A program made the translations under genes and the position numbers. A DNA stretch of 28,146 nt from a virus: positions 1-28,146 of IMG/VR virus record IMGVR_UViG_3300009425_000071, one strand, 5' to 3'. Below, in pieces: positions 180-26,917 of this stretch (its first letter is position 1; each line of letters starts with the position of its first letter). The notes under the pieces are model-generated. The model ran no database searches and was not told where the DNA came from. It worked only from the letters and a program-made list of their open reading frames with translations.

Positions 180-206
180 AGTTGATATATAAAGCAGCAG
201 TTAAAC
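180..206 (+). promoter_or_regulatory. Viral promoter element, copy 1
   Basis: Contains TTGATATATAAAGCAGCAGT followed by TAAAC. The TATA box (TATAAAG from position 188) lies 44 nt before the ATG at 232. That leaves a leader of roughly 18 nt containing AAGGAG if transcription starts about 25 nt downstream of the box. Five other near-identical copies precede other genes on the same strand. Confidence 0.8.
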
Positions 207-231
207 AACAAACAACAAGGAGAGAGAAAGA

Positions 232-843
232 ATGACAGATGATAATGATGTAGAATTAGCAGGTGACCTGCCTTACATTGGTAGAAGCACTACCAAGATA
301 CCCGATAATATGACAAAGGAGCATATAATGAAGAAGTTTACTTATGCTACTACACAAACATGGAGTGGGCATAAGTGTTACTATAGTATATACGAATCAC
401 GAGGCTTTATGAATTACTTGGGTTTCAAACACAATGCAACTGGAGTTATATTCAGTCTCTATAACACATACAGCGGCAAAGTTGGCACTACAACGGTACA
501 TCTTGATGGTACTAAATCAGAGGCTTATAACTGGCACGCACATTATGATGATGATGATGAGTGGGAAAGCATGATGAGTGAGATTAACGCTATTGACTCG
601 AAATTATCTAACTGGAATGTAATCCGTATGGAAGTACGAGAAGAAGTTAAGGACTATTTTCATGACCTGAATATAGTCTATCATTCTAACCCCTCACGAA
701 TGACAAAAGGTGACCTAAGCATGATATTCAAGCAGACAGATATACTACAGAAGGGCATGGCAGATGTCAAAGACGACTACGAACTCATTAAGAAAAATGG
801 ACCGATAGAAATAGTGAATGAGATGAAGGAGATGATTGTATGA
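232..843 (+). CDS. Hypothetical protein with Asp-rich stretch
   Basis: A 203-residue protein, first gene of the operon driven by promoter copy 1. An AAGGAG ribosome binding site lies about 9 bases before the ATG. I recognise no family. It has an aromatic, beta-rich middle (about residues 35-100), a DDDDEW run at about 106-111 encoded by four GAT repeats, and a helical charged C-terminal half. No signal peptide or membrane segment is visible. The last codons overlap the next gene (ATGA), indicating translational coupling. Position at the head of an operon of orphans suggests an early viral function, which is inference only. Confidence 0.75.
   Translation: MTDDNDVELAGDLPYIGRSTTKIPDNMTKEHIMKKFTYATTQTWSGHKCYYSIYESRGFMNYLGFKHNATGVIFSLYNTYSGKVGTTTVHLDGTKSEAYNWHAHYDDDDEWESMMSEINAIDSKLSNWNVIRMEVREEVKDYFHDLNIVYHSNPSRMTKGDLSMIFKQTDILQKGMADVKDDYELIKKNGPIEIVNEMKEMIV
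547..558 (+). repeat. (GAT)4 tract
   Basis: Four in-frame GAT codons followed by GAGTGG, giving DDDDEW. The same GAT-tract/GAGTGG arrangement occurs at 3246-3266 in another gene of the same operon. Confidence 0.85.
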
Positions 844-2399
844 GTGGAGAATGGGCCGGATGGCAAAATTGGCAACGCTTCTTAGAAGCGGGTATCGTAG
901 AGAACGCAGTGGACTTTAGCGAAGAGGCAATTATCGTAGACCACGCTGTAGGTAGAACGAAGAACGCTATTGGTAAGTGCTGGCCTATGGATGCAGCAGT
1001 TGCTTATACTCTCATGAAGGCTGGGCCGGACAAGAGTATGAACTGGGCAGACATGGTGAACACCCACACTCGTGGTGCTGCTGTTATGATGTCAGGGAAG
1101 GTAGGCTACGGCGAAGTACCAACCCCCAGCATTAAGTCATGTGGACATGATGAAGTGAATGCCTATAGCCTAACTCTCGGCGAGCCGATGTCGCAAGGCG
1201 AGGTCTTGTATTTCAAAACAAATTGGGGTTCGTCTAACTTAGAGGCTTGGTTGAAAGAGAACACAGAGGAGTTGAAGAAGGCAGGTCATAATGTGACAGA
1301 ACTGCTTGATACTTACGGGGAGATTCGTGTAGGAGTGAAACACCAACAAATAAGTATTTCTGCGATTATGTTATGTCAAGATATCTTCTTTGACCCCTTA
1401 ATGGCTGCACTCAAAACGATTTACCCAACCGCAACAGATTTCTCTACAGACTGTAACACTGATGTAGTCAAGTCAAAGACGCTTACTTACGGGGCCTGTA
1501 CTTGGGGAACCGATGATGATAAGGTCTGTCGGCATCACGACAGACCTACTTCTCGTATATGGTCTATGATTCGTAAAGATGATGGCTTCTTAGTGGCATG
1601 GGTAAGGAGTCCATGTGGTAGTGGTAGTAATAATCAACAATGGGATTATCAACCCACAAACATAGTACCAAAGAATGTAGTTAGTTGGGATGAGGCACGA
1701 AGAGGCATGAGTGAAAAGATTCCTGAAGATGAAGTAATCAAATATATCAGAGAGTCACTTGCTCGTATGCTCAAGAGGAATGACAACATCGTATCTAAGG
1801 AGGGTCGTGGTAAGAACTCTCAACACAGATGGTCTGACTGGGGCTGGCTCGCTGAGATGAGTTCCTATGTCAAGAACACCAGCAGCAAGAACCGTAAGGA
1901 AGGCGACACTGAGAACGGTTGGAAATACTGTAAGGTTCGTAGCCGCAAGTCATTCGGTCACGAGATTGCTGACTTCGTTTGGACACCTATTGAAGAAATC
2001 AAGGATTACATCGCAGGTCGTAAAGAACCAAGTGATTGGTCTGCCTCAAGTGTCATGGGTACGATGAGATTCTCTACGAAGCAACAGTGTGTTGATTTCA
2101 TGGAGGCAGTCACTCAAGCACATCTTGACAATGGTGGACACTACTCCAACAGAACCCACGATGGCCTTGAAAAGTCAGACAACTCTGAGTGGAGTATTCG
2201 CTCTGTGACTCACACCGTAGTTATGCATGGTCGTATAGACCCTGACGATTACCTAACCCCTCAAGCGGTTATTGCTATGTGGAGACAAGGAGCACCTGCT
2301 GTTCTCAAGGAGCACAGGGAGAACTTTGAGAAGCGACCTGCATACACCGTAAACCAAGCCCCACCACCGAAGGAGGGGCCAAGTGATGGAGACCAATGA
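840..2399 (+). CDS. Large orphan protein (519 aa)
   Basis: The start overlaps the previous stop as ATGA. The protein is soluble-looking and rich in Trp and charged residues, with no membrane segment. Cysteines are scattered (for example a CxxD/CRHHD region about residues 216-235). Its C-terminal tail is Pro-rich and probably disordered (PPPKEGPSDG). I find no Walker, nuclease or nucleotidyltransferase motif I can defend. It is the largest unrecognised protein of the early region and is translationally coupled to its neighbours on both sides. The 3' end overlaps the start of the next gene by about 14 bases. It is a real gene by length, overlaps and spacing; the function is unknown. Confidence 0.8.
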   Translation: MSGEWAGWQNWQRFLEAGIVENAVDFSEEAIIVDHAVGRTKNAIGKCWPMDAAVAYTLMKAGPDKSMNWADMVNTHTRGAAVMMSGKVGYGEVPTPSIKSCGHDEVNAYSLTLGEPMSQGEVLYFKTNWGSSNLEAWLKENTEELKKAGHNVTELLDTYGEIRVGVKHQQISISAIMLCQDIFFDPLMAALKTIYPTATDFSTDCNTDVVKSKTLTYGACTWGTDDDKVCRHHDRPTSRIWSMIRKDDGFLVAWVRSPCGSGSNNQQWDYQPTNIVPKNVVSWDEARRGMSEKIPEDEVIKYIRESLARMLKRNDNIVSKEGRGKNSQHRWSDWGWLAEMSSYVKNTSSKNRKEGDTENGWKYCKVRSRKSFGHEIADFVWTPIEEIKDYIAGRKEPSDWSASSVMGTMRFSTKQQCVDFMEAVTQAHLDNGGHYSNRTHDGLEKSDNSEWSIRSVTHTVVMHGRIDPDDYLTPQAVIAMWRQGAPAVLKEHRENFEKRPAYTVNQAPPPKEGPSDGDQ

Positions 2400-2706
2400 T
2401 AACTACAGGAACGCTGGACTAAAGGCGAGTGACATCACTCCTGATGGTATGTGGATGCTACCCGATGGTCACATGTGTGACCTCCGGCATGTTCAATTAC
2501 AACTTCCCAATGGGAGGGGTGAGGAGTGGGTCTTAGGTGTCGTGCTATCTGCCGAGGGAATATACAAAGTATGTCCTGAGTGCGAAGCAGACATCAAAGA
2601 GGGCATGATAATTATTATGGAAAAACATCACTACTTGGTAGTGAGATGTTGTGACAAATTATTCCTTTACGAAAACCAAAAAATAAATCTGGAGATATGG
2701 ACATGA
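2386..2706 (+). CDS. Small zinc-ribbon-like hypothetical protein
   Basis: Encodes 106 residues. The ATG at 2386 is preferred over the GTG at 2383 because AGGAGGGG ends 7 bases upstream. The middle is beta-rich and contains CPEC at residues 63-66, followed by a CC pair at 88-89, a plausible four-cysteine zinc site. No family is recognised. It overlaps the 3' end of the 519-residue orphan and the start of the next gene, so the three are probably co-translated. Confidence 0.7.
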   Translation: METNDNYRNAGLKASDITPDGMWMLPDGHMCDLRHVQLQLPNGRGEEWVLGVVLSAEGIYKVCPECEADIKEGMIIIMEKHHYLVVRCCDKLFLYENQKINLEIWT

Positions 2707-3452
2707 GCGAAGAAGATTTTAGTAATGAATTGAAAGTATGGGCGTTAGAACACTTTGGTACTATGGCTACCAATGCAGTGTGGCGACCCGAATCAACTGG
2801 CTGTCGTTATCGTAAGTTAGATGATGAGACATTAGAACTTGAACACAGGGTAGACCACCCTGATTCTGAGAGTCACCACGAGCGTATCACTGGGCTGTTT
2901 GCCTCTGTCAATATCAACATGGTAGATAGTGATGTCATGGTTACCAGTGTTGCTTTATCAGCAGAAGAAAGTTACCGCATGGAGATGCAAGAGCGACAAG
3001 CAATTGCTGCATCTTGGACTCATGATTGTGGACAACCCTTAGCCAACATGCCTCTCTCTTTAGGCGTACCTATCTTTGTAGGAGAAAGAGAAGTCTTGCT
3101 TGATGATGGGCAGACTCGTAGTGTTGAAGATTGGGCTGTGTCTGTACAGTGTGATAACTGCGACTCTCCTCCTGTTCTTATGAATCCCGACGACTACAAT
3201 TTACTGGCCGGTGATGGTCTATTCATGCGCTACAAAAAGTGTGTTGATGATGATGATGATGATGATGAGTGGATGGTTGCTATGACTCGTGAACAGATGT
3301 ATGCTACTGCCGAAGCAGGTGAACTCGGTGTCCTCGTTGGCTCAAGATGTCCTGATACTGGAGAGAAAGTCCCCCCTTGGATGTGGGGTACATACTGTAA
3401 GCAAGTACCTCACGAGGTATTCGCTATAGCCTCTCTTGGTGAAGAAGAGTGA
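2703..3452 (+). CDS. Hypothetical protein with poly-Asp run and Cys pairs
   Basis: Encodes 249 residues from the ATG at 2703, which sits 8 bases after GGAG; the ATG at 2697 is too close to that site. An N-terminal helical acidic part is followed by DCGQPL and, later, QCDNCDSPP, which could together bind a metal. A run of seven Asp (about residues 182-188), encoded by seven GAT codons, ends in EW, matching the DDDDEW of the protein at 232-843. The C-terminus has GSRCPDTGE and an aromatic PPWMWG segment. I do not recognise a family. The stop overlaps the GTG start of the next gene. Confidence 0.75.
   Translation: MSEEDFSNELKVWALEHFGTMATNAVWRPESTGCRYRKLDDETLELEHRVDHPDSESHHERITGLFASVNINMVDSDVMVTSVALSAEESYRMEMQERQAIAASWTHDCGQPLANMPLSLGVPIFVGEREVLLDDGQTRSVEDWAVSVQCDNCDSPPVLMNPDDYNLLAGDGLFMRYKKCVDDDDDDDEWMVAMTREQMYATAEAGELGVLVGSRCPDTGEKVPPWMWGTYCKQVPHEVFAIASLGEEE
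3246..3266 (+). repeat. (GAT)7 tract
   Basis: Seven consecutive GAT codons followed by GAGTGG. It is a short microsatellite in frame within a coding sequence. Gain or loss of whole units would keep the frame and change the length of the Asp run. Confidence 0.9.
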
Positions 3453-3589
3453 TTACAGAAGTAGTAGTAATTGCACTATACTTAGCAGCCGCTTATGTTT
3501 TCTCTAAGAAAGCACTTGCTCAACTGAAAGAAATAAACCGTGTCATGTTAGAGATATTAGTAAGAGAAGTAACGGGTGAAGAAGAGTGA
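3449..3589 (+). CDS. Small membrane-anchored microprotein
   Basis: Encodes 46 residues. The GTG start overlaps the previous stop (GTGA), with GGTGA 6 bases upstream. Residues about 3-18 form an uninterrupted hydrophobic stretch (EVVVIALYLAAAYVF), followed by a basic KK and an amphipathic helix ending in EEE. This predicts a single transmembrane helix with the charged tail in the cytoplasm. It is the only clearly membrane-spanning product I see in the plus-strand block. A membrane recruitment or lysis/accessory role is possible, but nothing in the sequence decides it. Confidence 0.6.
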   Translation: MITEVVVIALYLAAAYVFSKKALAQLKEINRVMLEILVREVTGEEE

Positions 3590-3771
3590 AAGGTTACTGG
3601 ACAAATAAGCACATGAATCATGTGGCGGAGATAATATCAGAGCCTATCGTTGGTGTATACGAACTACGCTATCTTAATGATACCAATAAGAAAAAAAGAA
3701 GATGGTGTAGAAGAGATTTACTTGAGCATTGGGAACCCTTAGATGATGATTCTATAGATGAGGAGGAGTGA
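3586..3771 (+). CDS. Small basic/acidic hypothetical protein
   Basis: Encodes 61 residues from a GTG that overlaps the preceding stop (GTGA), with a GGTGA site upstream. The body is compact and probably beta-rich, like a small SH3-like fold (VGVYELRYLND). It is followed by a basic KKKRRW patch and a very acidic tail (DDDSIDEEE). The fold suggestion is weak. The tight overlap with neighbours supports it as a gene. Confidence 0.6.
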   Translation: MKGYWTNKHMNHVAEIISEPIVGVYELRYLNDTNKKKRRWCRRDLLEHWEPLDDDSIDEEE

Positions 3772-3773
3772 GC

Positions 3774-4034
3774 ATGACAGAAAATACAGTATGGCAATCA
3801 AGTAGTCTTGAGGCTAAGTGGAAAGATGGTAGAGGTGATGTACGCCTTGCAGTTGTAGACTTCTTTGGTAAGAAATGGATTGACCTACGCATACTTCGTG
3901 ATGGCAAACAACACACAAGACATGGTGTACGGTTATCTATAGAACAGGCTACTGAACTCTTACCAAGACTCATAGAAGCACTTGAACAAGCGAAGGCTGA
4001 TGCAGAGAAAGAAGAACGGAAAGATGAATCTTGA
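3774..4034 (+). CDS. PC4/p15-like ssDNA-binding transcription coactivator
   Basis: Encodes 86 residues. ATG 3774 is chosen over GTG 3768 because AGGAGG ends 7 bases upstream. Residues about 23-70 match the PC4 (p15/Sub1) fold: four beta strands (VRLAVVDFFGKKWIDLRIL), a turn, a short strand (GVRLSIEQ) and a closing helix (ATELLPRLIEALEQA). PC4-family proteins bind single-stranded DNA as dimers and act in transcription and genome maintenance. The viral protein has the usual minimal length plus a charged tail. It is the last gene of the first operon; promoter copy 2 starts at its stop codon. The match is by eye, and the strand-turn-helix pattern is strong. Whether it acts on viral transcription or covers replication intermediates is not shown. 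Confidence 0.7.
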   Translation: MTENTVWQSSSLEAKWKDGRGDVRLAVVDFFGKKWIDLRILRDGKQHTRHGVRLSIEQATELLPRLIEALEQAKADAEKEERKDES

Positions 4035-4061
4035 AGTTGATATATAAAGCAGCAGTTAAAC
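4035..4061 (+). promoter_or_regulatory. Viral promoter element, copy 2
   Basis: Contains TTGATATATAAAGCAGCAGT followed by TAAAC, starting right after the stop of the PC4-like gene. TATAAAG begins at 4043, only 26 nt before the ATG at 4069. There is no purine-rich ribosome binding site between them, so the transcript is probably leaderless. Confidence 0.8.
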
Positions 4062-4068
4062 ATTAAAC

Positions 4069-4299
4069 ATGGAAAGGGCAGCAAGTGTCAGTCATGTTGA
4101 GTACGAAGTCCTATCTCTACTGAGAGATAACATAGACTTAACATCGTTGAAAGAAACTATGGCTACTGATGATGTAGCAGAGAAGCGTTGGGCTACAGGT
4201 ATAGCCAATGTCTGTACACTACTGGATAACATGTGTGACAGACGAACACATAAGTTACCGAAAGACCATGACGAATACAAAGAGAAGGTGACGGCATGA
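4069..4299 (+). CDS. Small helical hypothetical protein, probably leaderless
   Basis: Encodes 76 residues, predicted mostly helical, with two cysteines and no recognised family. There is no Shine-Dalgarno sequence before the ATG, and the start lies 26 nt from the TATA box of promoter copy 2. That is about where archaeal transcription begins. It is first in an operon of small zinc proteins, and its stop overlaps the next start (ATGA). Confidence 0.65.
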   Translation: MERAASVSHVEYEVLSLLRDNIDLTSLKETMATDDVAEKRWATGIANVCTLLDNMCDRRTHKLPKDHDEYKEKVTA

Positions 4300-4409
4300 C
4301 ACTTGAAATAACAGGGTGCGAAAACTGTAAGCGGTTTTGGTTGAAGGGTGAGGACTTTTGTCACGATTGCGGGCATGAGTTTGAAGAAAGCGTGGAGGTG
4401 AAGGCGTGA
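4296..4409 (+). CDS. Mini zinc-ribbon protein (37 aa)
   Basis: Encodes 37 residues with CENC at 8-11 and CHDC at 22-25, a textbook CxxC-x10-CxxC zinc ribbon, followed by an acidic tail. It overlaps the preceding stop as ATGA and the following GTG start as GTGA. It is too short to hold an enzymatic domain. It could be a stand-alone nucleic-acid- or RNA-polymerase-binding ribbon; that role is inference. Confidence 0.65.
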   Translation: MTLEITGCENCKRFWLKGEDFCHDCGHEFEESVEVKA

Positions 4410-4702: not shown

Positions 4703-4704
4703 TT

Positions 4705-5268
4705 ATGTCGTATAGTATAGAATGTAAAGCCTGTAAGAAACTGTTTACCAAAGCGACTAACGGTTCTACGGAAACGAGATGTCCTGATTGTATCTACAAG
4801 AATCATTGGCTCAAGAGTAGAAATCTCAGAGCAGCAATTGGTAACGATGAGTTGACTAAGAAACAAATCCTCAAGAAGATAGGCGAGATTGATGAGCGAC
4901 TTGAATCATTTGATGATGTAGCGTTGAAGGAATCAATCACCACTTTAGTGGCTAAGGAAATTAAGACACAGACCGAATCCTTTGAAATTACAATTCAAGA
5001 ACTCGCAGAAAAGTCAGGTATGTCCTACAGCAAACAGTTCAAGGAACTAAAGGTTGCACTTGAAGCATCACAAAAGGAGCACGAGGCTCGTATGAAAACG
5101 CTGCTCGCTACTGTCAACAGCAATTTCATAGCCACGCAAAAGAAAGTAAATGATAGGCTTGAGTTACTTGGTAAACGAGTCACGAACTTGAGAGCAATCG
5201 CTAAGAACAAAGGGTGGGGAATCTCACCTACAAAGGACACCAGCAGCAATCCTTTGAAAGATGATTGA
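4705..5268 (+). CDS. Zinc-ribbon plus coiled-coil protein
   Basis: Encodes 187 residues from ATG 4705, with GGAG 9 bases upstream; upstream in-frame ATG 4681 lies inside the previous gene and lacks a site. An N-terminal zinc ribbon has CKAC at 7-10 and CPDC at 26-29. About residues 45-165 are long, charged helices with heptad-like Leu/Ile spacing, predicted coiled coil. The tail is polar. The layout (ribbon head, coiled-coil stalk) suggests an oligomeric adaptor or DNA-binding scaffold. I do not recognise a named family. Its stop codon TGA is part of promoter copy 3 (the TGA in TTGATATA). Confidence 0.65.
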   Translation: MSYSIECKACKKLFTKATNGSTETRCPDCIYKNHWLKSRNLRAAIGNDELTKKQILKKIGEIDERLESFDDVALKESITTLVAKEIKTQTESFEITIQELAEKSGMSYSKQFKELKVALEASQKEHEARMKTLLATVNSNFIATQKKVNDRLELLGKRVTNLRAIAKNKGWGISPTKDTSSNPLKDD

Positions 5269-5288
5269 TATATAAAGCAGCAGTAAAC
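5264..5288 (+). promoter_or_regulatory. Viral promoter element, copy 3
   Basis: TTGATATATAAAGCAGCAGT followed by AAAC. It overlaps the stop codon of the preceding gene. TATAAAG starts at 5271, 43 nt before the ATG at 5314, leaving space for a leader with AAGGAG. Confidence 0.8.
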
Positions 5289-5313
5289 AAACAAACAGAA
5301 GGAGATGAATGAT

Positions 5314-6116: not shown

Positions 6117-6117
6117 A

Positions 6118-6438: not shown

Positions 6439-6457
6439 TTGACGATGAGGTGATTGA

Positions 6458-6796
6458 ATGAGCGAGAAAGCAGAAACCTTGGCTCGTGTTGTAGAAGCAC
6501 ACAAAGGTGTAGACAGAGGGATGGAGTTAGCCATAGCGATAGGTTTGAAAGGAGGAGACTACGCCTCAGCAAAGTCTCTCGCTATCAAAATATCAGGTAG
6601 CGAAGGTTGGGTGAATCAGCGTAGCCCTCACGGATTGATGATTGATTGCCTCTACCTTTGTGCAAAGCGTAAAGGATTCAAAACAAGTGCTCTAAAGATA
6701 AGAGAATTGACACTGAAGATATTTGGTGTGGGTACACAGCCACGACCTAACACATGGCAAAATGGTTATGTAGATTTAATTGAGGCTTCGCTATGA
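6458..6796 (+). CDS. TFB-cyclin-like protein (single cyclin-fold repeat)
   Basis: Encodes 112 residues, with GAGGTGA 4 bases before the ATG. Residues about 38-111 follow the pattern of the second cyclin repeat of archaeal TFB. A helix leads into QRSPHGLMIDCLYLCAK (TFB: G+SP.GL.AAALY.A). Then come a short helix, IRELTL (TFB: .RE.AE) and a closing YVDLIE (TFB: Y.EL.E). TFB recruits RNA polymerase to TATA-bound TBP. This protein has no zinc ribbon and only one repeat, so it could be a competitor or adaptor rather than a full factor. Recognition is by eye and moderate; an unrelated helical protein remains possible. It overlaps the next gene as ATGA. Confidence 0.45.
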   Translation: MSEKAETLARVVEAHKGVDRGMELAIAIGLKGGDYASAKSLAIKISGSEGWVNQRSPHGLMIDCLYLCAKRKGFKTSALKIRELTLKIFGVGTQPRPNTWQNGYVDLIEASL

Positions 6797-8471: not shown

Positions 8472-8474
8472 GTT

Positions 8475-8499
8475 AGTTGATATATAAAGCAGTAGTAAA
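8475..8499 (+). promoter_or_regulatory. Viral promoter element, copy 4
   Basis: TTGATATATAAAGCAGTAGT followed by AAAG. TATAAAG starts at 8483, 26 nt before the ATG at 8509. As with copy 2 there is no ribosome binding site in between, so the clamp-loader mRNA is probably leaderless. Confidence 0.8.
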
Positions 8500-8508
8500 G
8501 TGAGAGTC

Positions 8509-9423
8509 ATGGAGAACAGCACTGAACCACTGGTACTGGAGGACATAGCAGGGCAACCTGCCTTTGTCTCAGATGCTATGGGGTGGCGGAAAACTGGTAA
8601 GTGGCCTCGTGCTGTTCTCCTCCATGGTCCAGCGGGTACTGGTAAGACAACTGCTTCTAAAGTTCTCCTTCGTGAAATGATGGGCGACTACTATGACCCC
8701 ATGAATTACATTATCATCAATGCATCTGACGATAGAGGTATTGATTTCATTCGTAACGAACTCAAGATATGGAGTAGTATCAAACCTGTGGGTACTGACC
8801 GTAGAGGCATCGTGGCTGATGAGGCTGATGGTCTTACTACTGCTGCACAGGATGCACTCAAGGCTATTGTTGAGGACAATGCTGAGAACACATTTTACAT
8901 ATTCACTGCTAACGACTTGAGCAAGATTCGCCCTGCTATCCAAAGCAGGTGTCTTGTGTATGAGTTCAAGCCTATCAGTCCCGAAGATGGGGCTAAGAGA
9001 CTCAAGACTATTTGGCCTGAGTCAGATTGGGATGCGTCATTCATGAAACTTATGAAGCACACTGGTGGTGACCTGCGTAGTGCTATTGCTATCGTTCATA
9101 ACCACTCCAACGAAGAGTCATTGTTAGCGACTCTATCCGATGGGGGTAACCCATCACAGGCTGTACTCGCTGCTATTAGTGGTGAGTATGGTAACATGCG
9201 AAAGCAATTCTATTCAATGCTTGACAGAGGTTTACCACTAACCTTCATCATGAGAACATTCCATGAGAACTTAACCGAGTTCTTTGAGATGGATGAAGAT
9301 ACAACATGGACAGTCATGAGTGTGCTGGGTGAGATGATACCCCACATGTATGAGTGGCCTATCGGTTCCTATTCCTTTGTTGATTGCCTTGTGGCAAGAC
9401 TACGAAAGGAGGTGAAATCTTGA
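8509..9423 (+). CDS. Clamp loader small subunit-like AAA+ ATPase (RFC-S-like)
   Basis: Encodes 304 residues from ATG 8509, 26 nt after the TATA box; GTG 8500 in frame is an alternative. It is an AAA+ ATPase with Walker A GPAGTGKT (about 40-47), Walker B VADEAD (about 102-107), sensor 1 (IFTAND, about 131-136) and the RFC-box SRC arginine-finger motif (QSRC, about 145-148). A helical C-terminal collar follows. RFC small subunits load PCNA at primer ends. The length is close to cellular RfcS (about 320). No large subunit is seen here, so it may form a homomeric loader or work with the host RfcL; that is inference. It opens the replication operon that also holds the clamp and polymerase, and it ends with overlap into the next gene. 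Confidence 0.9.
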   Translation: MENSTEPLVLEDIAGQPAFVSDAMGWRKTGKWPRAVLLHGPAGTGKTTASKVLLREMMGDYYDPMNYIIINASDDRGIDFIRNELKIWSSIKPVGTDRRGIVADEADGLTTAAQDALKAIVEDNAENTFYIFTANDLSKIRPAIQSRCLVYEFKPISPEDGAKRLKTIWPESDWDASFMKLMKHTGGDLRSAIAIVHNHSNEESLLATLSDGGNPSQAVLAAISGEYGNMRKQFYSMLDRGLPLTFIMRTFHENLTEFFEMDEDTTWTVMSVLGEMIPHMYEWPIGSYSFVDCLVARLRKEVKS

Positions 9424-10745: not shown

Positions 10746-10756
10746 GGTGATTTATG

Positions 10757-11758
10757 ATGGCAGGTTTTGGAAAGACAAAAGAAGCAGACGCAGAAGTAAA
10801 GGCGGAGAAAGAACTGTTGGCAACACCAGCGGTCAAGCGTACAAACGACGACCCCTTCGCTGATTTACGAAAGGAACTCGACTTGATGGACAACGCACCA
10901 CAGACTCACTTGTTTATGGGTATTGCAGGGCATGACAACACTGGTAAGACGGCGATTGTTACCGATGCATTCGCTCGTTGGCTGGCTATGCCTGAGCGAA
11001 CTGAACAAGAGAAGGAGATGCAGTTATGGATTATGGACTTTGAAGGTGGCGGTGCTGCTAACAAGTCAGCATTCCATCGTGACAATGATAACATTAAATG
11101 TTTTGAGCCATGGGTCATGATGAAGAATGACACCACAGCATACAACTATCCCGAGACACATCTTCGTGTAATGAGTCTAACACAGTTCGCTAACGACATC
11201 GCTAAGAAACAGCGTGACCCTGAATACGATGGGCCACGACTGTGGGGATTCCATGTTACTGGTGTTGATTTGTGGGACAGCGTGTGCATCAACTGTATGC
11301 GTATCGTAGACTTGAACATCGCTAAGGATGGAATTGAGGCTGCTGACTGGAACAAGAAGGTAGGGCATCAGTGGGACTGGGCGATTCGTAAGACTCGTTT
11401 CCATCAACTCACAGGGCTTTGCCGGGGGCTTGTCAAGTCGGGAGTGCGTGTCTTTTGGGAGACTCACTTGCGACTCACTAACTACTCTTGGGGTAAGAAT
11501 GAAGAAGGTTCATCTACTTGGCGACCTGATTGGGAGAAGGCAAGTAACAACTTTGTCTATCAAATCTTAATCTGTGAGCGTACTGATATTCTTGATGATG
11601 ATACAGGTGAAGTTGTAAAGTCCGAATACACTGTTCGATTTGACAAGAGTAAAACCAATGCTCGTCTACAAGGACAGAAAAGAACCACACTCGTCACCGA
11701 GACAGGTAAAGAGCCACAATGGTATGGTCTACCTGAACTCTATGACGGGACACTTTGA
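10757..11758 (+). CDS. RecA/Sak4-like P-loop ATPase (recombination)
   Basis: Encodes 333 residues from ATG 10757 (GAGGTGA 6 bases upstream; ATG 10754 is an alternative). Walker A is GHDNTGKT (about 58-65). A beta strand ending in Asp (WGFHVTGVDLWDS) is the likely Walker B. EGGG after a strand (IMDFEGGG) resembles the RecA-type catalytic Glu position. The N-terminal 45 residues are charged and disordered. Single-domain RecA-like ATPases of tailed viruses, such as Sak4, promote annealing and recombination with an SSB. The neighbouring putative ssDNA-binding protein fits this. It lacks the HhH N-domain of cellular RadA, so I do not call it RadA. It is the last gene before a 114-base gap. Confidence 0.65.
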   Translation: MAGFGKTKEADAEVKAEKELLATPAVKRTNDDPFADLRKELDLMDNAPQTHLFMGIAGHDNTGKTAIVTDAFARWLAMPERTEQEKEMQLWIMDFEGGGAANKSAFHRDNDNIKCFEPWVMMKNDTTAYNYPETHLRVMSLTQFANDIAKKQRDPEYDGPRLWGFHVTGVDLWDSVCINCMRIVDLNIAKDGIEAADWNKKVGHQWDWAIRKTRFHQLTGLCRGLVKSGVRVFWETHLRLTNYSWGKNEEGSSTWRPDWEKASNNFVYQILICERTDILDDDTGEVVKSEYTVRFDKSKTNARLQGQKRTTLVTETGKEPQWYGLPELYDGTL

Positions 11759-11872
11759 TTCACACATGGGGGTTTCTGTAGGATAAAAAACCGGGCACTT
11801 TCTCAACTCTCAGCGAAGGGGTTTCATCATACTCCCTCTTCCGGTTTCCCCCTCCTACTCTAAGGTGATACT
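11759..11872 (+). other. Non-coding gap with pyrimidine-rich tract
   Basis: No gene is seen. The gap holds GGATAAAAAACC (11781-11792), which could be a weak TATA-like element. It also holds a long pyrimidine-rich stretch (about 11827-11861) and 7-base inverted arms AAACCGG (11788-11794) and CCGGTTT (11841-11847) 46 bases apart. Pyrimidine/T-rich tracts are compatible with archaeal termination. It lacks the promoter family seen elsewhere. It ends with GGTGATACT before the ATG at 11873. Confidence 0.4.
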
Positions 11873-12004
11873 ATGACTAAACATATTAACAGAAGCAAAG
11901 CCATAGTGGGTGGTAAACTATTCCCTAAAGGTATATTCAGGGTTGTTTCAAGCGACGAGGAATTAAAGAAGGAATTAAAGAAGGCATTAACTGAAGAAGA
12001 GTGA
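11873..12004 (+). CDS. Short basic hypothetical protein (43 aa)
   Basis: Encodes 43 residues with a strong GGTGA site before the ATG; the same GGTGATACT/GTGATACT leader recurs before the next gene. An N-terminal basic part (TKHINRSKAIVGGKLFPKG) is followed by a strand and a helix with two ELKK repeats (GAATTAAAGAAG repeated in DNA). No family is recognised. It lies directly before the sliding clamp gene, 4 bases apart. Confidence 0.5.
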   Translation: MTKHINRSKAIVGGKLFPKGIFRVVSSDEELKKELKKALTEEE

Positions 12005-12008
12005 TACT

Positions 12009-12776
12009 ATGACAAAAATTAACATTAACAGAAAACAACTACTCAGTTTCCTGAGTGACTTCGGTAAGAACGCTGAGGACTTGCACATCAAGTTCACAGT
12101 AGAAGATGATGTAAATTGGATGCAAACAACTGTTGCATTCATCTCGCACTATCTCAAGAAGAAGCAAAAGGTGCAGGGCGAAGTAATTGAAACTGGCTCT
12201 CTTGACATCAGTGAACTGGTGAAGGTTCGTCAGTTCTTGAAAGCAGGTAAGGCTGATACTGTTAGGGTAGTTCAACTCGGCTCGGCTAAGACTCTTTCAA
12301 TAACTTGTGGTGGTTCAAAGGTTACAATGCCTACGAGTTCTACAACGGTCAGTCATTCAAAAGCAGTGTTGTTTAATAAACTGATAGACGCTGCTGTAGA
12401 ATCTAAGTGGACTAAGTTTCACGACTGCAACCTTACTGTGTCAGGAGTTATTACTCTCGATGAACTCACGACTGTATCTAAGATGAGAGGCATACTAAAC
12501 AGTAGTCCAGTATTCAAAGTAACAGCGCACGCAAGTGAGAATGAGTTCCTCATCTCTTCAGGTAAGAGGCATGAAACTAAGTTGTTTACCACACTTGAAC
12601 TACGAGATTCTACTGGCCCTGCTGAGGGAAGTGTAGTCTCAACCTTCGGCCCTTGGTTAATGGATAACATAGCACTGCTCGGTAACGGTGATGCTACTAT
12701 ACACATGGGTGAAGGTACAATTCTCGCTATTGAAAAAGAAGATGATTTACTTGTGATTGTAGACCAAAGGGTGTGA
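12009..12776 (+). CDS. PCNA-like sliding clamp, divergent
   Basis: Encodes 255 residues, close to PCNA (about 245-250). The overall pattern is two similar beta/alpha halves. The last about 45 residues match the PCNA C-terminal layout: a helix with a hydrophobic face (GPWLMDNIALLG), strands (DATIHMGEGTILAIEKEDD) and a final strand ending in VDQRV, where cellular PCNA has the APR(I/V) end. PCNA rings tether polymerase and other enzymes to DNA through PIP boxes. The N-terminal half is very divergent. It is placed between the recombination ATPase and PolB, downstream of the clamp loader, which strongly supports the call. Confidence 0.7.
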   Translation: MTKININRKQLLSFLSDFGKNAEDLHIKFTVEDDVNWMQTTVAFISHYLKKKQKVQGEVIETGSLDISELVKVRQFLKAGKADTVRVVQLGSAKTLSITCGGSKVTMPTSSTTVSHSKAVLFNKLIDAAVESKWTKFHDCNLTVSGVITLDELTTVSKMRGILNSSPVFKVTAHASENEFLISSGKRHETKLFTTLELRDSTGPAEGSVVSTFGPWLMDNIALLGNGDATIHMGEGTILAIEKEDDLLVIVDQRV

Positions 12777-12780
12777 TGAT

Positions 12781-15195
12781 ATGATTGTAGATTGGTATTA
12801 CCCAACGGAGTCTGATAACTTCACTGCTCCTTGGTTGTATCTTCGCACTCGTGATAAGAACGGGACACTGCAAGAGGAACACATCAGCCCTTATGATGAG
12901 AAGTATGTAAAGCCGCATTGTTGGATTCCTGTTGATACACCCGATTGGAAAATCAATCGTATGTTTGCTCGCCATGCCAGTGCAACTTTGCACAGAGACA
13001 TTCGTTCTACTGGTATTGATAAGAAGGCGTTGATGAAGGTTGAGGTAGATAGACCTACAGACTTGTGGGACATCAAGGATGAAATGGAGACTTATGAAGC
13101 AGACTTGAATTACTTAGACCAAGTATTACTACAACTCTATCCCAAGAAACTACCTGAGTTCAAACCTCGTAAGTGGTATTTTGATTTGGAGTGGGACACT
13201 AAGAACGACTCTACTACTGTGATGGCTGTAGTGGATAGTGACCTTGAGACCCCTGTAGTGTTTGCATGGGCTGACGAGACAACCAACTGTCCTTATGATG
13301 ATGCTCACTTGAATGATAATTTAGCAGTTCACAGAGATGTTCGTGACGAGACATACAAGTTGAATCTATACTCAAGTGAAGAAGCCATGCACGATGGCTT
13401 CCTTAATTTCTTAGAGGAGCGTAACCCTGACATACTCATAGCCCACGCTATAATGTGGGCTGACCTACCACACTTGATGCGTAGGCTTCGTAACCCTGAT
13501 GCACTCTCACCACTCGGACAAGTTATCAGACCCTTCAAAGGTAAAGACTCCTACAAGACTACACAACAACCTATCAAGGGTAGACTATGCTGGGACTCTG
13601 CTGGTGATTGGAAATCAGGTAGCGGGTTTGAGACGATATGGCAGAAGTCAGGTCGTGGACAACTACCTAACCGTAAGTTGAATACCATAGCGGAGTCACT
13701 TGGTCTCGGTAGTAAACTCACTGAAGAGATAGAAGGTATGACTGTCCACAATGGATGGCGTGAATACTGGAGTGACTTCGTGGATTACTGTCTACTTGAT
13801 ACTACTCTACTCCGTGACATAGATAAGAAGTTACACGCTACTGATTTCTTCGTTGCTACACAACAGTTGTGTGGTGTCTCTTGGGCAAGCACTCACAAGG
13901 TTACCCGATACTTCAGAGGGATGATTGGTAGAAGGACTCAACTGAAAGCGAGAAGTGCTCGTAATGTTATGCGAGATATTCTCACTGCTGCTCACATTCC
14001 TAACCCCATACCGGGTAGACATGAGGGTGTAGCCATTCTGGACTATGCATCTCTCTATCCTAACATTATTCTCTCCGATAACCTCTCTTACGAGACAAAG
14101 CGATTAGCCCCTACTGAAACGACAAAGACATTGGGGGATGGCTCTCACTGGTGTCAGAAAGAGAAGGGCTTACTCCCCTCTGTAGTGGAGGAGATGTTGG
14201 TCTTGCGTGCTGAATACAAACGCTTGATGGCTGAGGCCACAGACCCTGATGAGAGGTTGGGGTATGACATGATGCAGACCGCAGTAAAGGTACTTGTCAA
14301 TGCTTTGTATGGTATGACGGGGATGAAGATGTTGCAGGGTATGTGGGTAGACAATGACATCGCTGCTGCTATTACACACCGAGGTCGTGAATGTATTCAT
14401 CACTTACTTCAGGAAAGTGAAGAGCAGGGATTCAAGTCACTGTATGGTCACACTGATTCAGCCTTCATACAAGTTCCCTTTGATAAAGCAGAATCGCTTG
14501 CAGAGCATCTCACTAAGACTGCTAAGGAGAAGTTGAATCTACCTACAATGGATGTTGAACTCGAAGCATACTTTGACTACTGGACCACTGCTCCAGTGAA
14601 GAACCGTTACTTCGGTATCAAGGTGTGGCCTGAGAAGAACAAGGGTGAGATGAAGATTGCTGGGTATGAAATCAAATCATCCAGTTCTGCACGCATCACA
14701 AAACAGATTCAAGACAAAGCCATGCAGTTGATTGCTACTGGTGCAGATGAAACTACAGTCACTGATGTGCTAAGAGAGGTGAGTCTATCTGTACGGAACG
14801 GAGATATACCTATTGAGGATGTATCTTGTTCCTCACGACTAACTAAACCACTCAAAGAATATGACAAACCTACTCCAGCAGCAAGGGCTGCTATGTATTA
14901 CAACGAACATGTGGCTGAAACACCTGAGCAAAAATGGGGACAAGGTGACAGTGTAGCATGGACTTATGTGAAGGGATTCAAAGATGGCATCCCTGACTAT
15001 TACACTCTCAAGGGTGAGCGAACTAAGGTAACTTACATCGCTTATCGGGATAAGGCTGAGTTGAGTAACTATGCCATTGACTGGGACAAGGTTCTCAGCG
15101 TGATGGTCAAATCTAAACTCATGCGTATCTATGAGAGTTTGGACTGGGGCTTGAGTGCCGCCGCTGGTGACACTATGCCCAAATCCTATATCTAA
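12781..15195 (+). CDS. polB: Family B DNA polymerase with 3'-5' exonuclease domain
   Basis: Encodes 804 residues. Exo I is FDLEWDT (134-140; D135, E137), Exo II has D228 in MWADLPHL, and Exo III is DYCLLD (Y336, D340). Polymerase motif A is DYASLYPNII (421-430), motif B is KVLVNALYG (503-511), and motif C is YGHTDS (555-560). The KxRY motif is KNRYFG (607-612). All domains of a replicative PolB are present and proofreading should work. Motif C reads HTD in place of the usual DTD. Exo II lacks the usual Asn (AHAIMWAD). The protein has no PIP box at its own C-terminus, but an in-frame small ORF 12 bases downstream carries one. The gene follows the clamp by 4 bases. Confidence 0.95.
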   Translation: MIVDWYYPTESDNFTAPWLYLRTRDKNGTLQEEHISPYDEKYVKPHCWIPVDTPDWKINRMFARHASATLHRDIRSTGIDKKALMKVEVDRPTDLWDIKDEMETYEADLNYLDQVLLQLYPKKLPEFKPRKWYFDLEWDTKNDSTTVMAVVDSDLETPVVFAWADETTNCPYDDAHLNDNLAVHRDVRDETYKLNLYSSEEAMHDGFLNFLEERNPDILIAHAIMWADLPHLMRRLRNPDALSPLGQVIRPFKGKDSYKTTQQPIKGRLCWDSAGDWKSGSGFETIWQKSGRGQLPNRKLNTIAESLGLGSKLTEEIEGMTVHNGWREYWSDFVDYCLLDTTLLRDIDKKLHATDFFVATQQLCGVSWASTHKVTRYFRGMIGRRTQLKARSARNVMRDILTAAHIPNPIPGRHEGVAILDYASLYPNIILSDNLSYETKRLAPTETTKTLGDGSHWCQKEKGLLPSVVEEMLVLRAEYKRLMAEATDPDERLGYDMMQTAVKVLVNALYGMTGMKMLQGMWVDNDIAAAITHRGRECIHHLLQESEEQGFKSLYGHTDSAFIQVPFDKAESLAEHLTKTAKEKLNLPTMDVELEAYFDYWTTAPVKNRYFGIKVWPEKNKGEMKIAGYEIKSSSSARITKQIQDKAMQLIATGADETTVTDVLREVSLSVRNGDIPIEDVSCSSRLTKPLKEYDKPTPAARAAMYYNEHVAETPEQKWGQGDSVAWTYVKGFKDGIPDYYTLKGERTKVTYIAYRDKAELSNYAIDWDKVLSVMVKSKLMRIYESLDWGLSAAAGDTMPKSYI

Positions 15196-15207
15196 CGAGG
15201 TGATGAA

Positions 15208-15372
15208 ATGAAGAAAACGAGACAAACAAAACTGACTGAATACGGAATGACATTTGAAAGTGATGCTAAGAAAGAGAGTATCATAAGTAGACTACAGAAG
15301 ATGATGAACCCTAAGAAATCTAAAGTTGATATAAAAAGCAGCAGTCAAAAAACAGTTGGTGAAGAGGAATGA
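15208..15372 (+). CDS. Small basic protein with PIP-box-like motif, in frame with PolB
   Basis: Encodes 54 residues, with GAGGTGA just before the ATG. The N-terminus MKKTRQTKLTEYG holds Q-x-x-L-x-x-Y, close to the PCNA-interaction (PIP) box Q-x-x-L/I/M-x-x-F/Y-F/Y. The second aromatic is Gly here. The frame is the same as PolB, separated by a single TAA and four codons. Reading through that stop would place the motif at the end of PolB, where archaeal PolB normally carries its PIP box. The 3' third (VDIKSSSQK) is the coding reading of promoter copy 5, so the last residues may be constrained by DNA rather than protein. It overlaps the next gene as ATGA. A stand-alone clamp-binding peptide is the simplest reading. 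Confidence 0.55.
   Translation: MKKTRQTKLTEYGMTFESDAKKESIISRLQKMMNPKKSKVDIKSSSQKTVGEEE
15324..15353 (+). promoter_or_regulatory. Viral promoter element, copy 5 (inside a small ORF)
   Basis: GTTGATATAAAAAGCAGCAG followed by TCAAAA. It differs from the other copies by one base in the TATA box. It sits about 40 nt before the ATG at 15369, which has GGTGA 6 bases upstream. The element lies within the coding sequence of the small ORF at 15208-15372. Confidence 0.7.
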
Positions 15373-16882: not shown

Positions 16883-16883
16883 A

Positions 16884-17201
16884 ATGGATAAAGAAGGGTT
16901 AGATACAATCATAAGTTTGCTGAAACTTTCCTTAGAGCGTCTGTGGCCTAAGTTTGAGTTCGAGGTAAAGACTGCTTTACTGAGTAGTAAGAAGAGAATT
17001 GACATCAAGGTGACATCACAATTAACATTAGACGAATACTGGCTTGGGAGTTATGATACAGTTCAAAAAGAAAGACCATATCCTTGCTTCTACATATTCA
17101 TCCACCCTTCTAAACTGACTAAGGATAAAATCTCAGATACTTTCTATAGCATAATAAGTAGCGTACTAAAACAAGATGTTATATTCCATTTAGCGGAGTG
17201 A
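16884..17201 (+). CDS. Hypothetical protein
   Basis: Encodes 105 residues from ATG 16884 (1 base after the preceding stop; a G-rich stretch lies upstream). It shows alternating helix-strand segments (TIISLLKLSLERLW, FEFEVKTALL, IDIKVTS, CFYIFIHPS). This suggests a compact alpha/beta domain. No family is recognised. The stop overlaps the region before the primase start. Confidence 0.6.
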   Translation: MDKEGLDTIISLLKLSLERLWPKFEFEVKTALLSSKKRIDIKVTSQLTLDEYWLGSYDTVQKERPYPCFYIFIHPSKLTKDKISDTFYSIISSVLKQDVIFHLAE

Positions 17202-17206
17202 TTTAC

Positions 17207-18319
17207 ATGGGCTTCATATCATTGGACTTCCCTCGTGAAGTCCTTGAAATAGCCTCTGATGGTAAGCAAGGCGGAAGATGGTGTGTAAAGAACTGGGCCG
17301 AATTAGAGAAATACTGGAGAGGGAAAAATGGTAGTGGGAATGTATATTTTACGGCGTATGGTTATCGTGCTACTACGCCGCCGAGAAATCACAGAGTAGA
17401 CTATGACACTCCCATCATCCGTCATTTTGTAATGGACTTTGACTGTAAAGATTTCAAACAGCGTGGTGCTGATGTTGACTTCCCCTTCATGCACGAGCAG
17501 GTTAAAAGGCTACATCGTTTTCTAAAGTATGAGAACATTCGACACTTCGTTTGGTTTAGTGGTGGGGGGTTTCACTTTTGGATTCCGCTTCGTGATATGT
17601 ACACCCCTTCTAATGAATCACACAAAAGAAGAATAAGAGAAGGTGGTCGTAACCTCATCACAGCATGGCATAAGAAATTGAATCTGTCTTGTAATGACCC
17701 ATCGGTTGCGTTTGATACATCAGGTATGATTCGTATTCCTAACTCCTACAATAGTAAGAGGGGTTGTTGGAGTATTCCGATGAGTAGTGATGAGATACTC
17801 AATCTAACTCATGATGAGATTATGGAGAAGGCTCAAACCCCAGCGAGAGGGTACATAGAAATTGAAGGAGAGGACATTAACATCACTGTACCTGAGAGTA
17901 AAAACTCTTTCAAGAAATCAGTTGAGAAGGTAGAGGGTCTACCCGACATCACATTAGGTGACATCATCGTTCTACCGTGTCTTGCACAGGCTGCTCTTGG
18001 TGAGGGTAACCCCACTCACAAAGCAAGATTTCACTTCGTATCTTATCTCGCCGCTCGGTTCCGTTGGTTCTTTCCACCCGAAGCCGTAGACAACGAGACT
18101 AAGACTACTCATGTAGACCGCATATGCTCAGTGATTGAAGCACAGGGTTGGGTTGACTACAACGAAAATATAACAAGGACTCAAGTAGAAAATATCGTAT
18201 TCGGGGGGTCGGGTAACAAGGGTTACTCAGCAGCATCTTGCGCTACACTTGAATACGATGGCCTGTGTATTGGAAAATGTCGCTATTTTGACGGCAGTAT
18301 AGGTGATGAAAATGATTAA
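17207..18319 (+). CDS. Archaeo-eukaryotic primase, PriS core fused to PriL-like Fe-S domain
   Basis: Encodes 370 residues from ATG 17207 (GGAG 8 bases upstream). The catalytic core has FVMDFDCKD with the metal-binding D77 and D79. It also has the SGGGFHFW motif (118-125, His123) and the downstream RIPNSYNSKRG motif (176-186). The C-terminal part (about 245-365) carries LPC (C258), ASC (C345) and LCIGKC (C354, C358). That is the four-cysteine pattern of the PriL C-terminal Fe-S domain. Primases make the RNA/DNA primers extended by PolB. Cellular archaea use separate PriS and PriL, so one polypeptide with both is a compact viral version, comparable with fused primases known in other archaeal elements. 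It lacks the small zinc knuckle of PriS in an obvious form. Confidence 0.8.
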   Translation: MGFISLDFPREVLEIASDGKQGGRWCVKNWAELEKYWRGKNGSGNVYFTAYGYRATTPPRNHRVDYDTPIIRHFVMDFDCKDFKQRGADVDFPFMHEQVKRLHRFLKYENIRHFVWFSGGGFHFWIPLRDMYTPSNESHKRRIREGGRNLITAWHKKLNLSCNDPSVAFDTSGMIRIPNSYNSKRGCWSIPMSSDEILNLTHDEIMEKAQTPARGYIEIEGEDINITVPESKNSFKKSVEKVEGLPDITLGDIIVLPCLAQAALGEGNPTHKARFHFVSYLAARFRWFFPPEAVDNETKTTHVDRICSVIEAQGWVDYNENITRTQVENIVFGGSGNKGYSAASCATLEYDGLCIGKCRYFDGSIGDEND

Positions 18320-18707
18320 GAGAAAGGACTGGAGTTCAAGAAGGGTGAAATATAAAGCAGCATTGATTCAATTATTTATGTCAGTAAGTAGACCACTCAC
18401 AACTTGTGAAATTAAAGACCATACTAACACATGGAGACATGGTATGACTTCAAACGAATTAAGTAATTTACTCGCCAAAGACCAAGCATTCGCTCAATCA
18501 GGTACTGTTATGTCTGCTGGTTTTGGTGGTAGATACCCCGTAGCATTATGGGTTTTGAATCAAAGCGAGGTGGAAAATATGAAAATATCACCACTAAAAA
18601 CATGTAATGATTGTGGGGTGTCTATTCAGGCCACAGGTAGACCCACATGCGGAAAATGCTACCTCTCTAAGAAACAAAAGGAGAGAAGGAAAAATGGTAA
18701 AGCCTGA
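18312..18707 (+). CDS. Winged-helix plus zinc-ribbon DNA-binding protein
   Basis: Encodes 131 residues from ATG 18312 (AGGTGA 5 bases upstream). Residues about 12-82 have the pattern of a winged helix-turn-helix: helix KAALIQLFMS, PLTTCEIKDHTN, recognition helix TSNELSNLLA and a wing VMSAGFGGRYPVALWVL. A zinc ribbon follows, with CNDC (98-101) and CGKC (113-116), then a basic tail. This is the make-up of a transcription regulator or replication adaptor. A promoter-like element (TATAAAGCAGCA) lies inside its 5' end, with an in-frame ATG (M23) 27 nt downstream. A shorter form from a leaderless internal transcript is therefore possible. The final 14 bases overlap the ERCC4 gene. Confidence 0.6.
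   Translation: MIKRKDWSSRRVKYKAALIQLFMSVSRPLTTCEIKDHTNTWRHGMTSNELSNLLAKDQAFAQSGTVMSAGFGGRYPVALWVLNQSEVENMKISPLKTCNDCGVSIQATGRPTCGKCYLSKKQKERRKNGKA
18345..18369 (+). promoter_or_regulatory. Degenerate internal copy of the viral promoter element
   Basis: GTGAAATATAAAGCAGCATT shares TATAAAGCAGCA exactly with the main copies and most of the flanking bases. It lies within the winged-helix gene. The in-frame ATG at 18378 is 27 nt after TATAAAG (26 nt in copies 2 and 4). It may be a weaker promoter or a coincidental coding match (VKYKAALIQ). Confidence 0.4.
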
Positions 18708-19404
18708 TTTGATTATTGACTCAAATGAAAGAGGTTCACTTTGCGAATCAATTGAGCGTAGAGCAAAGAAAGAAGGTTTGACAATAACAAGACAACCACT
18801 TGTAGTAGGTGACTACCTTCTGGGTGCTGCTTGTGTAGAAGCAAAAAGTGTTACAGACTTATTCCAATCAAGTTATAGTGGTCACTTGTGGCGACAGTTA
18901 GACAACATGGATGCTAACTACGAGAGATTCTTTCTCGTGGTGCATGGTTCTATAGCAAAGTATGTCACCTTCGCTAAGAAGCAGAACAGACACCTAACAC
19001 ACAGTCGGGTTCAGAATGAACTCACAGGAACTCTCGCTCGTATCATGGCCGACTTTGACTGCCAAGTATTCTTCACCTCTAACATCAGCGAGGCTGCTAT
19101 GTTCATCACAAAGTTACATAACAAGTTGCACAAACCAGCGAGTAAGCATGGTGCTCAGGCTATCAGGCGTGTCTCTACCAATGATGTAAGAGTGGATATG
19201 TTGCTATCAGTTCCGGGTGTTGGTGCTGAGTTAGCAGAGCGTTTACTTGACAAGTGTGGTAGCATAGAAGAGATGTGCTTCCCTGAATCGCTGAAGCAAG
19301 TTAAGGGGCTTGGGGATAAGAAAAGGCAACTCATTATCGAGGTTTTGACCAGTGAAGCCCCTGTACATATCCAGCGCACAGTAAAACGGAAGCGGGGTAT
19401 TTAA
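18694..19404 (+). CDS. ERCC4/XPF-Hef-type structure-specific nuclease with HhH2
   Basis: Encodes 236 residues from ATG 18694, preceded by AAAGGAG/GAAGGA. The ERCC4 nuclease domain starts with LIIDSNERG (D9, E12, R13), then VVGDYLL (37-43) and VEAKSVTDL (48-56). The canonical motif is V-E-R-K-x3-D; here Arg is replaced by Ala while E49, K51 and D55 remain. HhH hairpins lie at about 168-195 (SVPGVGAELAERLL) and 200-220 (KQVKGLGDKK). XPF/Hef nucleases cut branched DNA such as flaps and stalled forks. The protein lacks the helicase part of Hef, like the short XPF of some archaea. It ends the primase operon, before the 144-base gap. Confidence 0.85.
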   Translation: MVKPDLIIDSNERGSLCESIERRAKKEGLTITRQPLVVGDYLLGAACVEAKSVTDLFQSSYSGHLWRQLDNMDANYERFFLVVHGSIAKYVTFAKKQNRHLTHSRVQNELTGTLARIMADFDCQVFFTSNISEAAMFITKLHNKLHKPASKHGAQAIRRVSTNDVRVDMLLSVPGVGAELAERLLDKCGSIEEMCFPESLKQVKGLGDKKRQLIIEVLTSEAPVHIQRTVKRKRGI

Positions 19405-19548
19405 GGCAGCATCGTGATATGACTTGTACGACTTGTACGATGTCTTGTCTATACTTGTACAATGTTTAATAGACAGGTGCTTGTGCGATATATTTCTGTA
19501 TAATGTATAGATAACCCATCGGACAGTTCGGACAACCATCAGATTTGA
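19405..19548 (+). other. Non-coding repeat-rich gap (candidate origin or operator)
   Basis: No gene is seen. It contains three ACTTGTAC units (19422-19429, 19431-19438, 19453-19460), the first two in tandem at 9-base spacing. It also contains the palindrome TTGTACAA (19455-19462), inverted arms TGTCTAT/ATAGACA (19446-19452 and 19469-19475) and an AT-rich stretch (about 19487-19511). A direct repeat GGACA/CCATC follows around 19516-19540. Promoter copy 6 begins at its end. These features suit protein-binding sites, for example a replication origin or operator. Confidence 0.5.
19421..19475 (+). repeat. ACTTGTAC direct repeats nested with an inverted repeat
   Basis: The tandem pair CTTGTACGA occupies 19423-19431 and 19432-19440. 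A third ACTTGTAC sits inside the loop of TGTCTAT/ATAGACA (16-base loop). GTAC within each unit is itself palindromic. Confidence 0.7.
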
Positions 19549-19574
19549 GTTGATATATAAAGCAGTAATAAACA
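19548..19574 (+). promoter_or_regulatory. Viral promoter element, copy 6
   Basis: TTGATATATAAAGCAGTAAT followed by AAAC. TATAAAG starts at 19556, 36 nt before the ATG at 19592; AAAGGA lies in the short leader. It follows the repeat-rich gap. Confidence 0.8.
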
Positions 19575-26569: not shown

Positions 26570-26570
26570 T

Positions 26571-26915: not shown

Positions 26916-26917
26916 AT

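Follow-up and report, generated by a model that had tools for sequence, protein, structure and literature searches.

A putative promoter code shared by magrovirus replication genes and its concerted change between virus clades

Results

Genes and motif copies of the replication module

The window (the whole stretch of DNA analyzed here) is a virus record of 28,146 bases, a magrovirus (Poseidoniales virus) fragment with a replication module, and it is placed with the magroviruses because of its gene content and layout. These viruses and their Poseidoniales hosts abound in the surface ocean but are uncultured, and the timing of viral gene expression is little understood. Pfam assigns the window genes to a family B DNA polymerase, an RFC-like ATPase, PD-(D/E)XK and ERCC4 nucleases and a TCP-1 chaperonin, and of the cellular chaperonins found the closest, at 40% identity, belongs to a Poseidoniaceae MAG. 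Neither the DNA of the window nor its TFB-like and RFC proteins had a match in searches of phage collections. Magroviruses are tailed viruses of Poseidoniales archaea in which the replication and morphogenesis clusters are oppositely oriented (PMC10768690). The features to which we refer below are as follows.

182..201, + strand: motif copy 1, TTGATATATAAAGCAGCAGT, ahead of a 203-aa gene at 232 and kept before its ortholog (OG4) in clades A, B and C
3768..4034, + strand: PC4-like protein, 88 aa, with a transcriptional coactivator/ssDNA-binding fold, ending 2 nt before copy 2
4037..4056, + strand: motif copy 2, exact, 32 nt from the ATG at 4069 (OG6; 32-33 nt in all nine genomes)
5265..5284, + strand: motif copy 3, exact, overlapping the preceding gene's stop codon and heading the block of the TFB-like protein
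6458..6796, + strand: TFB-like protein, 112 aa, predicted single cyclin fold, in the copy-3 block two genes before the RFC block
8477..8496, + strand: motif copy 4, GCAGTA sub-form, 32 nt from the ATG at 8509 of the RFC-like clamp loader
8509..9423, + strand: RFC-small-subunit-like clamp loader, first gene after copy 4 (Pfam AAA, DNA_pol3_delta2)
12781..15195, + strand: family B DNA polymerase, within the copy-4 block (Pfam DNA_pol_B, E 4.9e-44)
15326..15345, + strand: motif copy 5, TATAAAAA sub-form, before the gene at 15369 (OG7) and the PD-(D/E)XK nuclease block
18345..18364, + strand: weak seventh match with 3 mismatches, within an ORF and 33 nt before an in-frame ATG
19550..19569, + strand: motif copy 6, GCAGTA sub-form, before the gene of a 468-aa protein with its ATG at 19592 (OG5)
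24356..28123, - strand: structural-side genes in the opposite orientation, motif-free in the motif scan

The motif TTGATATATAAAGCAGCAGT occurs in six copies with 0-2 mismatches, on the + strand only and upstream of six replication-module genes, confirming a sequence-only reading that had reported six near-identical copies at coordinates that prove correct within 2 nt. The copies at 182, 4037 and 5265 are exact, those at 8477 and 15326 have 1 mismatch and that at 19550 has 2. Each precedes the ATG of the gene that opens a block, at a distance, measured from motif position 1, of 50, 32, 40, 32, 43 and 42 nt for copies 1-6. Their description as lying before each plus-strand operon is a fair one, the operons being putative. 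The 468-aa protein that follows copy 6 is, as a guess, a helicase. Allowing up to 3 mismatches to TTGATATATAAAGCAGCAGT gives 7 matches; the expectation is 0.00, with none in 100 dinucleotide shuffles. The seventh, at 18345, is inside an ORF and is missing from the sole ortholog found (G011), and it is therefore probably coincidental. The apparent gaps at 3452-3768, 11758-12009 and 21258-21535 contain small ORFs and no motif copy. Matches resembling GCAGCATT at 3 to 5 mismatches, such as that at 21877, were rejected as coding sequence (LVDKAALG), and those at 13922 in G001 and 36823 in G005 are coding sequence by their likeness to it. The claim that conservation extends past the TATA box holds through motif position 18; position 19 is free and position 20 is mostly T, while the trailing AAAC of the earlier description reduces to an A-rich tendency at positions 21-23 (0.6-1.6 bits in the window's clade).

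The motif in related viruses

Relatives were gathered by searches of IMG/VR with the PolB and RFC proteins (41-88% identity, several of 100-107 kb), and a mismatch search finds the motif in 12 of 19 records, with 2-14 copies in a genome, always confined to one of its strands. Further loci gathered through the TFB-like protein carry the same motif or another form of it. Altogether there are 142 sites in 17 genomes or loci, namely the six of the window and 136 in 16 others, and they fall into six clade-specific forms. All share one layout, in which TTGA, TTAG, TCAG, TCAC or TTCC is followed by TATATAAAG (or TACTTAAAG) and then by GCARCA, GGAACA or GAAACA.

Clade A (window, G001, G004): TTGATATATAAAGCAGCA
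Clade B: TTGATATATAAAGSAACA
Clade C: TTAGTATATAAAGCAGCA
Clade D: TCAGTATWTAAAGAAACA
Clade E: TCACTACTTAAAGCRRYA
Clade F: TTCCTATATAAAGCARCA

Two approaches independent of these patterns are in agreement, as a scan for TATA[TA]AA alone shows that nearly every TATATAAA in clades A-C has the same flanks, and a pattern-free count of 8-mers upstream of ORFs recovers the motif. The same count reveals a different motif, TTCACTACTTAAAGCAGCATCAA, in 13 copies in G011. Only 4 of 2.9 million viral contigs contain an exact match to the clade E form, and all four have the TFB-like gene; multi-copy matches to the TTGA form are confined to these viruses. Single matches in that scan (L385, L396, L404 and L412) are probably due to chance, and relatives of these proteins are not found there.

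The motif is thus present before orthologous genes in relatives, where the sequence-only reading had proposed that it should be sought, in six virus clades and always on the replication-gene strand, with zero sites on the structural strand in the 17 genomes or loci. The promoter of the RFC gene (copy 4, OG1) is kept in all six clades and that of the gene at 5305 (copy 3, OG0) in five (A, B, C, E and F), in 15 genomes or loci each. No shared 7-mer convincingly marks the late genes. As in a virus-wide shared promoter repeat, the copies are near-identical, conserved in relatives and limited to a single gene class, and as in an archaeal promoter they lie directly upstream of genes in the transcribed orientation.

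The sub-forms have a distribution of their own. In clades A and C, GCAGTA is found only at the RFC gene, at the 468-aa protein of copy 6 and at the copy-5 position, where relatives also retain the TATAAAAA sub-form; in clade B these three places have GGAACA except for RFC in G005, as do some other clade B promoters. Since GCAGTA and GGAACA recur at the same orthologous operons, promoter sub-classes persist. This bears on the reading that gene conversion or a mobile promoter element spread the unit among blocks with no selection by a shared reader. Near-identical intergenic repeats can indeed spread by recombination, as with the promoter-carrying repeats of some phages, but homogenization would erase sub-forms that persist at orthologous places across clades, the identity of the copies ends sharply at the 20-bp unit with flanks no more alike than chance, and the spacing from motif to ATG is maintained. 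We find copying of this kind hardly credible.

Concerted change between clades

Across the 142 sites the four upstream bases are 0.97 identical among unrelated promoters of one genome, a value inflated by the collection of sites with clade patterns, and the TATA-only scan and 8-mer count, which do not depend on those patterns, give the same picture. The corresponding values are 0.55 for orthologous promoters of different clades and 0.50 for unrelated genes of different clades. Sequence that flanks the motif is at background in all three classes of comparison (0.28-0.39 identity). Judged from these alignments, the motif changes in concert between clades, and since all promoters of a genome change jointly, the change points to a trans-acting reader rather than to local copying. 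A dedicated, virus-specific trans-acting reader of the motif is therefore likely.

Spacing, start sites and host genomes

In clades A-C the distance from motif position 1 to the ATG has a sharp peak, with 41 of 102 ATGs at 32-34 nt and 8 closer. Longer leaders in these clades have an SD-like sequence in 46 of 50 cases, and for 27 of 52 short-spaced genes an SD-like GGTG or GGAG lies in the stretch that would fall outside an mRNA beginning at position 33, so that a start further upstream or read-through transcripts are possible for them. From the peak of ATG distances we infer a start site near motif position 33, and if transcripts start at the 32-34 nt peak, TATATAAA spans -28 to -21. The center of an archaeal TATA box is about 24-27 nt upstream of the start. 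Promoter function of the motif is, on its position and conservation, likely.

That the unit might instead act as a leader element in the RNA, as an iteron for replication, or as a site for packaging or recombination, is a reading to which we give next to no weight. The sites do lie among replication genes in a fixed orientation, but they extend over ~35 kb at fixed ATG spacing, unlike clustered iterons, and the motif has as its core a TATA box whose register matches that of host TATA boxes. RNA leader structure was rejected, as none of the copies folds better than its shuffles (z -0.9 to +1.5).

The host genomes speak to a further alternative, that host factors suffice and the unit is a strong composite promoter, perhaps that of one TFB paralog, with flanks tuned to the host of each clade. 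Two TFBs are present in some marine euryarchaeal MAGs (G023, G024), hosts could differ between clades, and the TATA core is in the register of the host profile, which has a weak AT-rich TTTAAA signal at -29 to -24. The same host profile shows no conservation at -20 to -13, however, and host genes are without the element, as the motif at up to 1 mismatch is found in only 4 of 146 Poseidoniales genomes, at one site each. Two of these sites belong to a single orthologous locus next to carboxylase genes, one is within a long ORF and the fourth, L363, has a virus-like leader. A shorter motif pattern is found at up to 1 mismatch in 3 of 38 Poseidoniaceae genomes, and the TTCACTACTTAAAG form is likewise missing from hosts beyond single 3-mismatch matches. 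We rejected the reading as a host-type promoter because the motif is missing, as such a class, from the 146 host genomes and the host profile differs; as a promoter class it is not one that the host uses, and sufficiency of host factors seems to us quite improbable. The sequence-only reading had suggested an extra recognized element beyond the TATA box, and this is borne out in that the element is virus-specific, missing from host genomes and switched jointly at all promoters of one genome.

Candidate readers

For the viral factor suggested in that reading a candidate exists, the TFB-like protein at 6458-6796, the link of which to the motif is inferred. Of 17 records, 14 encode an ortholog, and those without one are three fragments of 13-18 kb. 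Pfam TFIIB matches 9 of the 14 orthologs at E<=1, the best at ~14 bits against a cut-off of 23.6, and it alone touches most of them, as no other Pfam family matches more than one. The AlphaFold model has six helices (pLDDT 89.4) in what is predicted to be a cyclin-type fold, and its best Foldseek match is Pyrococcus TFB in the TBP-TATA complex (1ais_B; E 0.08, probability 0.97), with further PDB matches almost entirely to TFIIB, Brf and cyclins. An hhalign comparison gives a weak match in the same register, and direct sequence comparison to PDB chains gives none. We refer to the protein as TFB-like and not as a TFB because the zinc ribbon and second repeat are missing: its 112 residues hold one cyclin repeat, and the alignment of 14 sequences has neither cysteine pairs nor room for an N-terminal zinc ribbon or B-reader. 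No virus-encoded TBP was found. Residue 92 (G or S) was compared with the upstream bases and rejected, as there is no consistent code and no residue matched. TFB-type folds touch the DNA immediately to either side of the TATA box, which is where the virus-specific bases lie, and for this reason we propose the TFB-like protein as the reader. On the predicted structure it is the best candidate, and whether it is the reader is a question we regard as nearly balanced.

The second candidate is the PC4-like protein at 3768-4034, which matches Pfam PC4 at E 1.3e-4, just under the cut-off, and above the cut-off in G011 and G012; orthologs 54-87% identical are present in 12 other genomes. It enters an alternative in which the promoters are shared and early but are read by another viral protein (PC4-like or zinc-finger/HTH), or in which the motif is the operator of a viral repressor for later shut-off. 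PC4 folds usually bind single-stranded DNA with little sequence preference, which argues against a PC4-like reader in spite of its conservation in 13 genomes, and the other Zn/HTH candidates of the window are not conserved in all clades. The motif is without the inverted repeat that a dimeric repressor usually needs. There are precedents, as the common early-gene motif of SIRV2-type viruses is paired with the small regulator Aca8 (PMC11065993) and the sites of archaeal viral repressors are often over the BRE or TATA box (PMC5569661). Taken together, we consider a different viral reader or a repressor unlikely.

Discussion

We propose that the copies are shared promoters of the replication (early) blocks, the flanks of which are read by one trans-acting factor, and we regard this as probable; that the motif-bearing genes are expressed early is suggested by their gene content. 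The TATATAAA core at about -28 to -21 would be bound by host TBP, and the BRE-position tetranucleotide (about -32 to -29) together with GCARCA (about -20 to -15) would form a virus-specific code, carried by viral replication genes and by neither host nor viral structural genes. One trans-acting factor would read these flanks, most likely the TFB-like protein of the virus, acting alongside host TFB or replacing it. The fuller proposal, in which a magrovirus one-repeat mini-TFB and host TBP read a private TATA-flanking code and the code of the regulon has been switched repeatedly together with factor specificity, is tentative, and if pressed we would lean slightly against it.

Virus-wide shared promoter motifs are already known in archaeal viruses, as the GTC element of SIRV and the repeats of HF2 show. 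The early-gene motifs of SIRV are alike in that virus-specific bases beside the TATA box are common to many genes of one virus; the virus-specific element is downstream of the TATA box, and the flanks vary between viruses, which has been read as different regulators. In SIRV the TATA/BRE cores occur at strong host genes as well and the viral genes concerned are mostly anti-defense, whereas the magrovirus unit is at replication genes and its hosts are without it. The class I/II intergenic repeats of halovirus HF2 are also virus-wide, in short gaps and conserved in relatives, and the available part of that report describes them as promoters by reporter assay and primer extension, with a TATA box at about -26 and one class at early-middle genes, and proposes virus-encoded sequence-specific factors (PMC8707807). 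HF2 differs in its repeat sequences and in being of a haloarchaeal virus group, and in that its initiation region mattered most and changes adjacent to the TATA box were without effect; the same part of the report describes no concerted clade switching and no TFB-like candidate (PMC8707807).

Among relatives of the window, the ICTV map of the Poseidoniales virus YSH_150918 (Aoguangviridae) labels a TFB, an RFC-S, PCNA and PolB, alongside a replication and a morphogenesis cluster that run in opposite directions (PMC10768690). The likeness of its TFB to the 6458-6796 protein is by annotation name, and no promoter motif is described (PMC10768690). An analogy of logic only is poxvirus VITF-3, which the available part of the source gives as a viral TBP/TFIIB-like factor on virus-specific promoters, and which differs in belonging to animal viruses and in having a viral RNA polymerase as partner (PMC12917281). 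The literature search yielded no publication that deals with magrovirus promoters.

Compared with the archaeal systems above, the present case adds a further virus order, a 20-bp code, the concerted switching of that code between clades and a TFB-like candidate reader. A code of this kind, legible from sequence, marks the replication regulon in metagenomic data. Were the TFB-like protein its reader, it would rank as a viral basal factor of very small size, one that could be tested in vitro with few purified proteins, and the switching from clade to clade would then offer a natural experiment in the co-evolution of promoters and the factors that recognize them.

Promoter matches in host genomes

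Among the 146 Poseidoniales genomes scanned, the only exact match to the 20-bp viral promoter lies in a host MAG slice (L363, G086:C157, near 940-1010, minus strand), and its leader and that of the virus at G001:49452 (a clade A relative of the window) are nearly identical across ~50 nt. This locus perhaps represents a virus-derived promoter and gene inside a host, or else a mis-binned contig. A small unknown gene adjoins the match and an ftsZ-like fragment is found nearby.

One further site, TTGATATAAAAAGCAGCA, is common to two Poseidoniaceae MAGs (L364, G059:C140, and L365, G027:C28) and appears to be a virus-type promoter at a single host gene. In both MAGs a 138-aa unknown gene is located downstream of the site, and carboxylase genes adjoin.

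Additional features of the window

11759-11872, GC-rich gap of ~114 nt, flanked by the ATPase gene and by a tiny ORF that precedes the gene at 12009
11865-11881 and 12001-12017, copies of the direct repeat GTGATACTATGACTAAA, one in each of two successive start regions
18303-18707, DUF3860 protein (Pfam score 27.7 bits against a cut-off of 27)

No promoter copy is present in the 11759-11872 gap, and the direct repeat is an SD-plus-start sequence common to both start regions. Inverted-repeat-like stretches (AAAACCGG / CCGGTTTCC) also occur within the gap. The DUF3860 protein, found among the relatives in G011 only, has a zinc-ribbon-like C-terminal end with CxxC, and is a possible DNA-binding protein.

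Promoter sub-forms

At promoter positions 14-17, the downstream element exists in clades A, B, and C as two sub-forms, GCAGCA/GCAACA versus GCAGTA/GGAACA. Because each stays at the same orthologous operons across these clades, the sub-forms hint at two classes of timing or strength.
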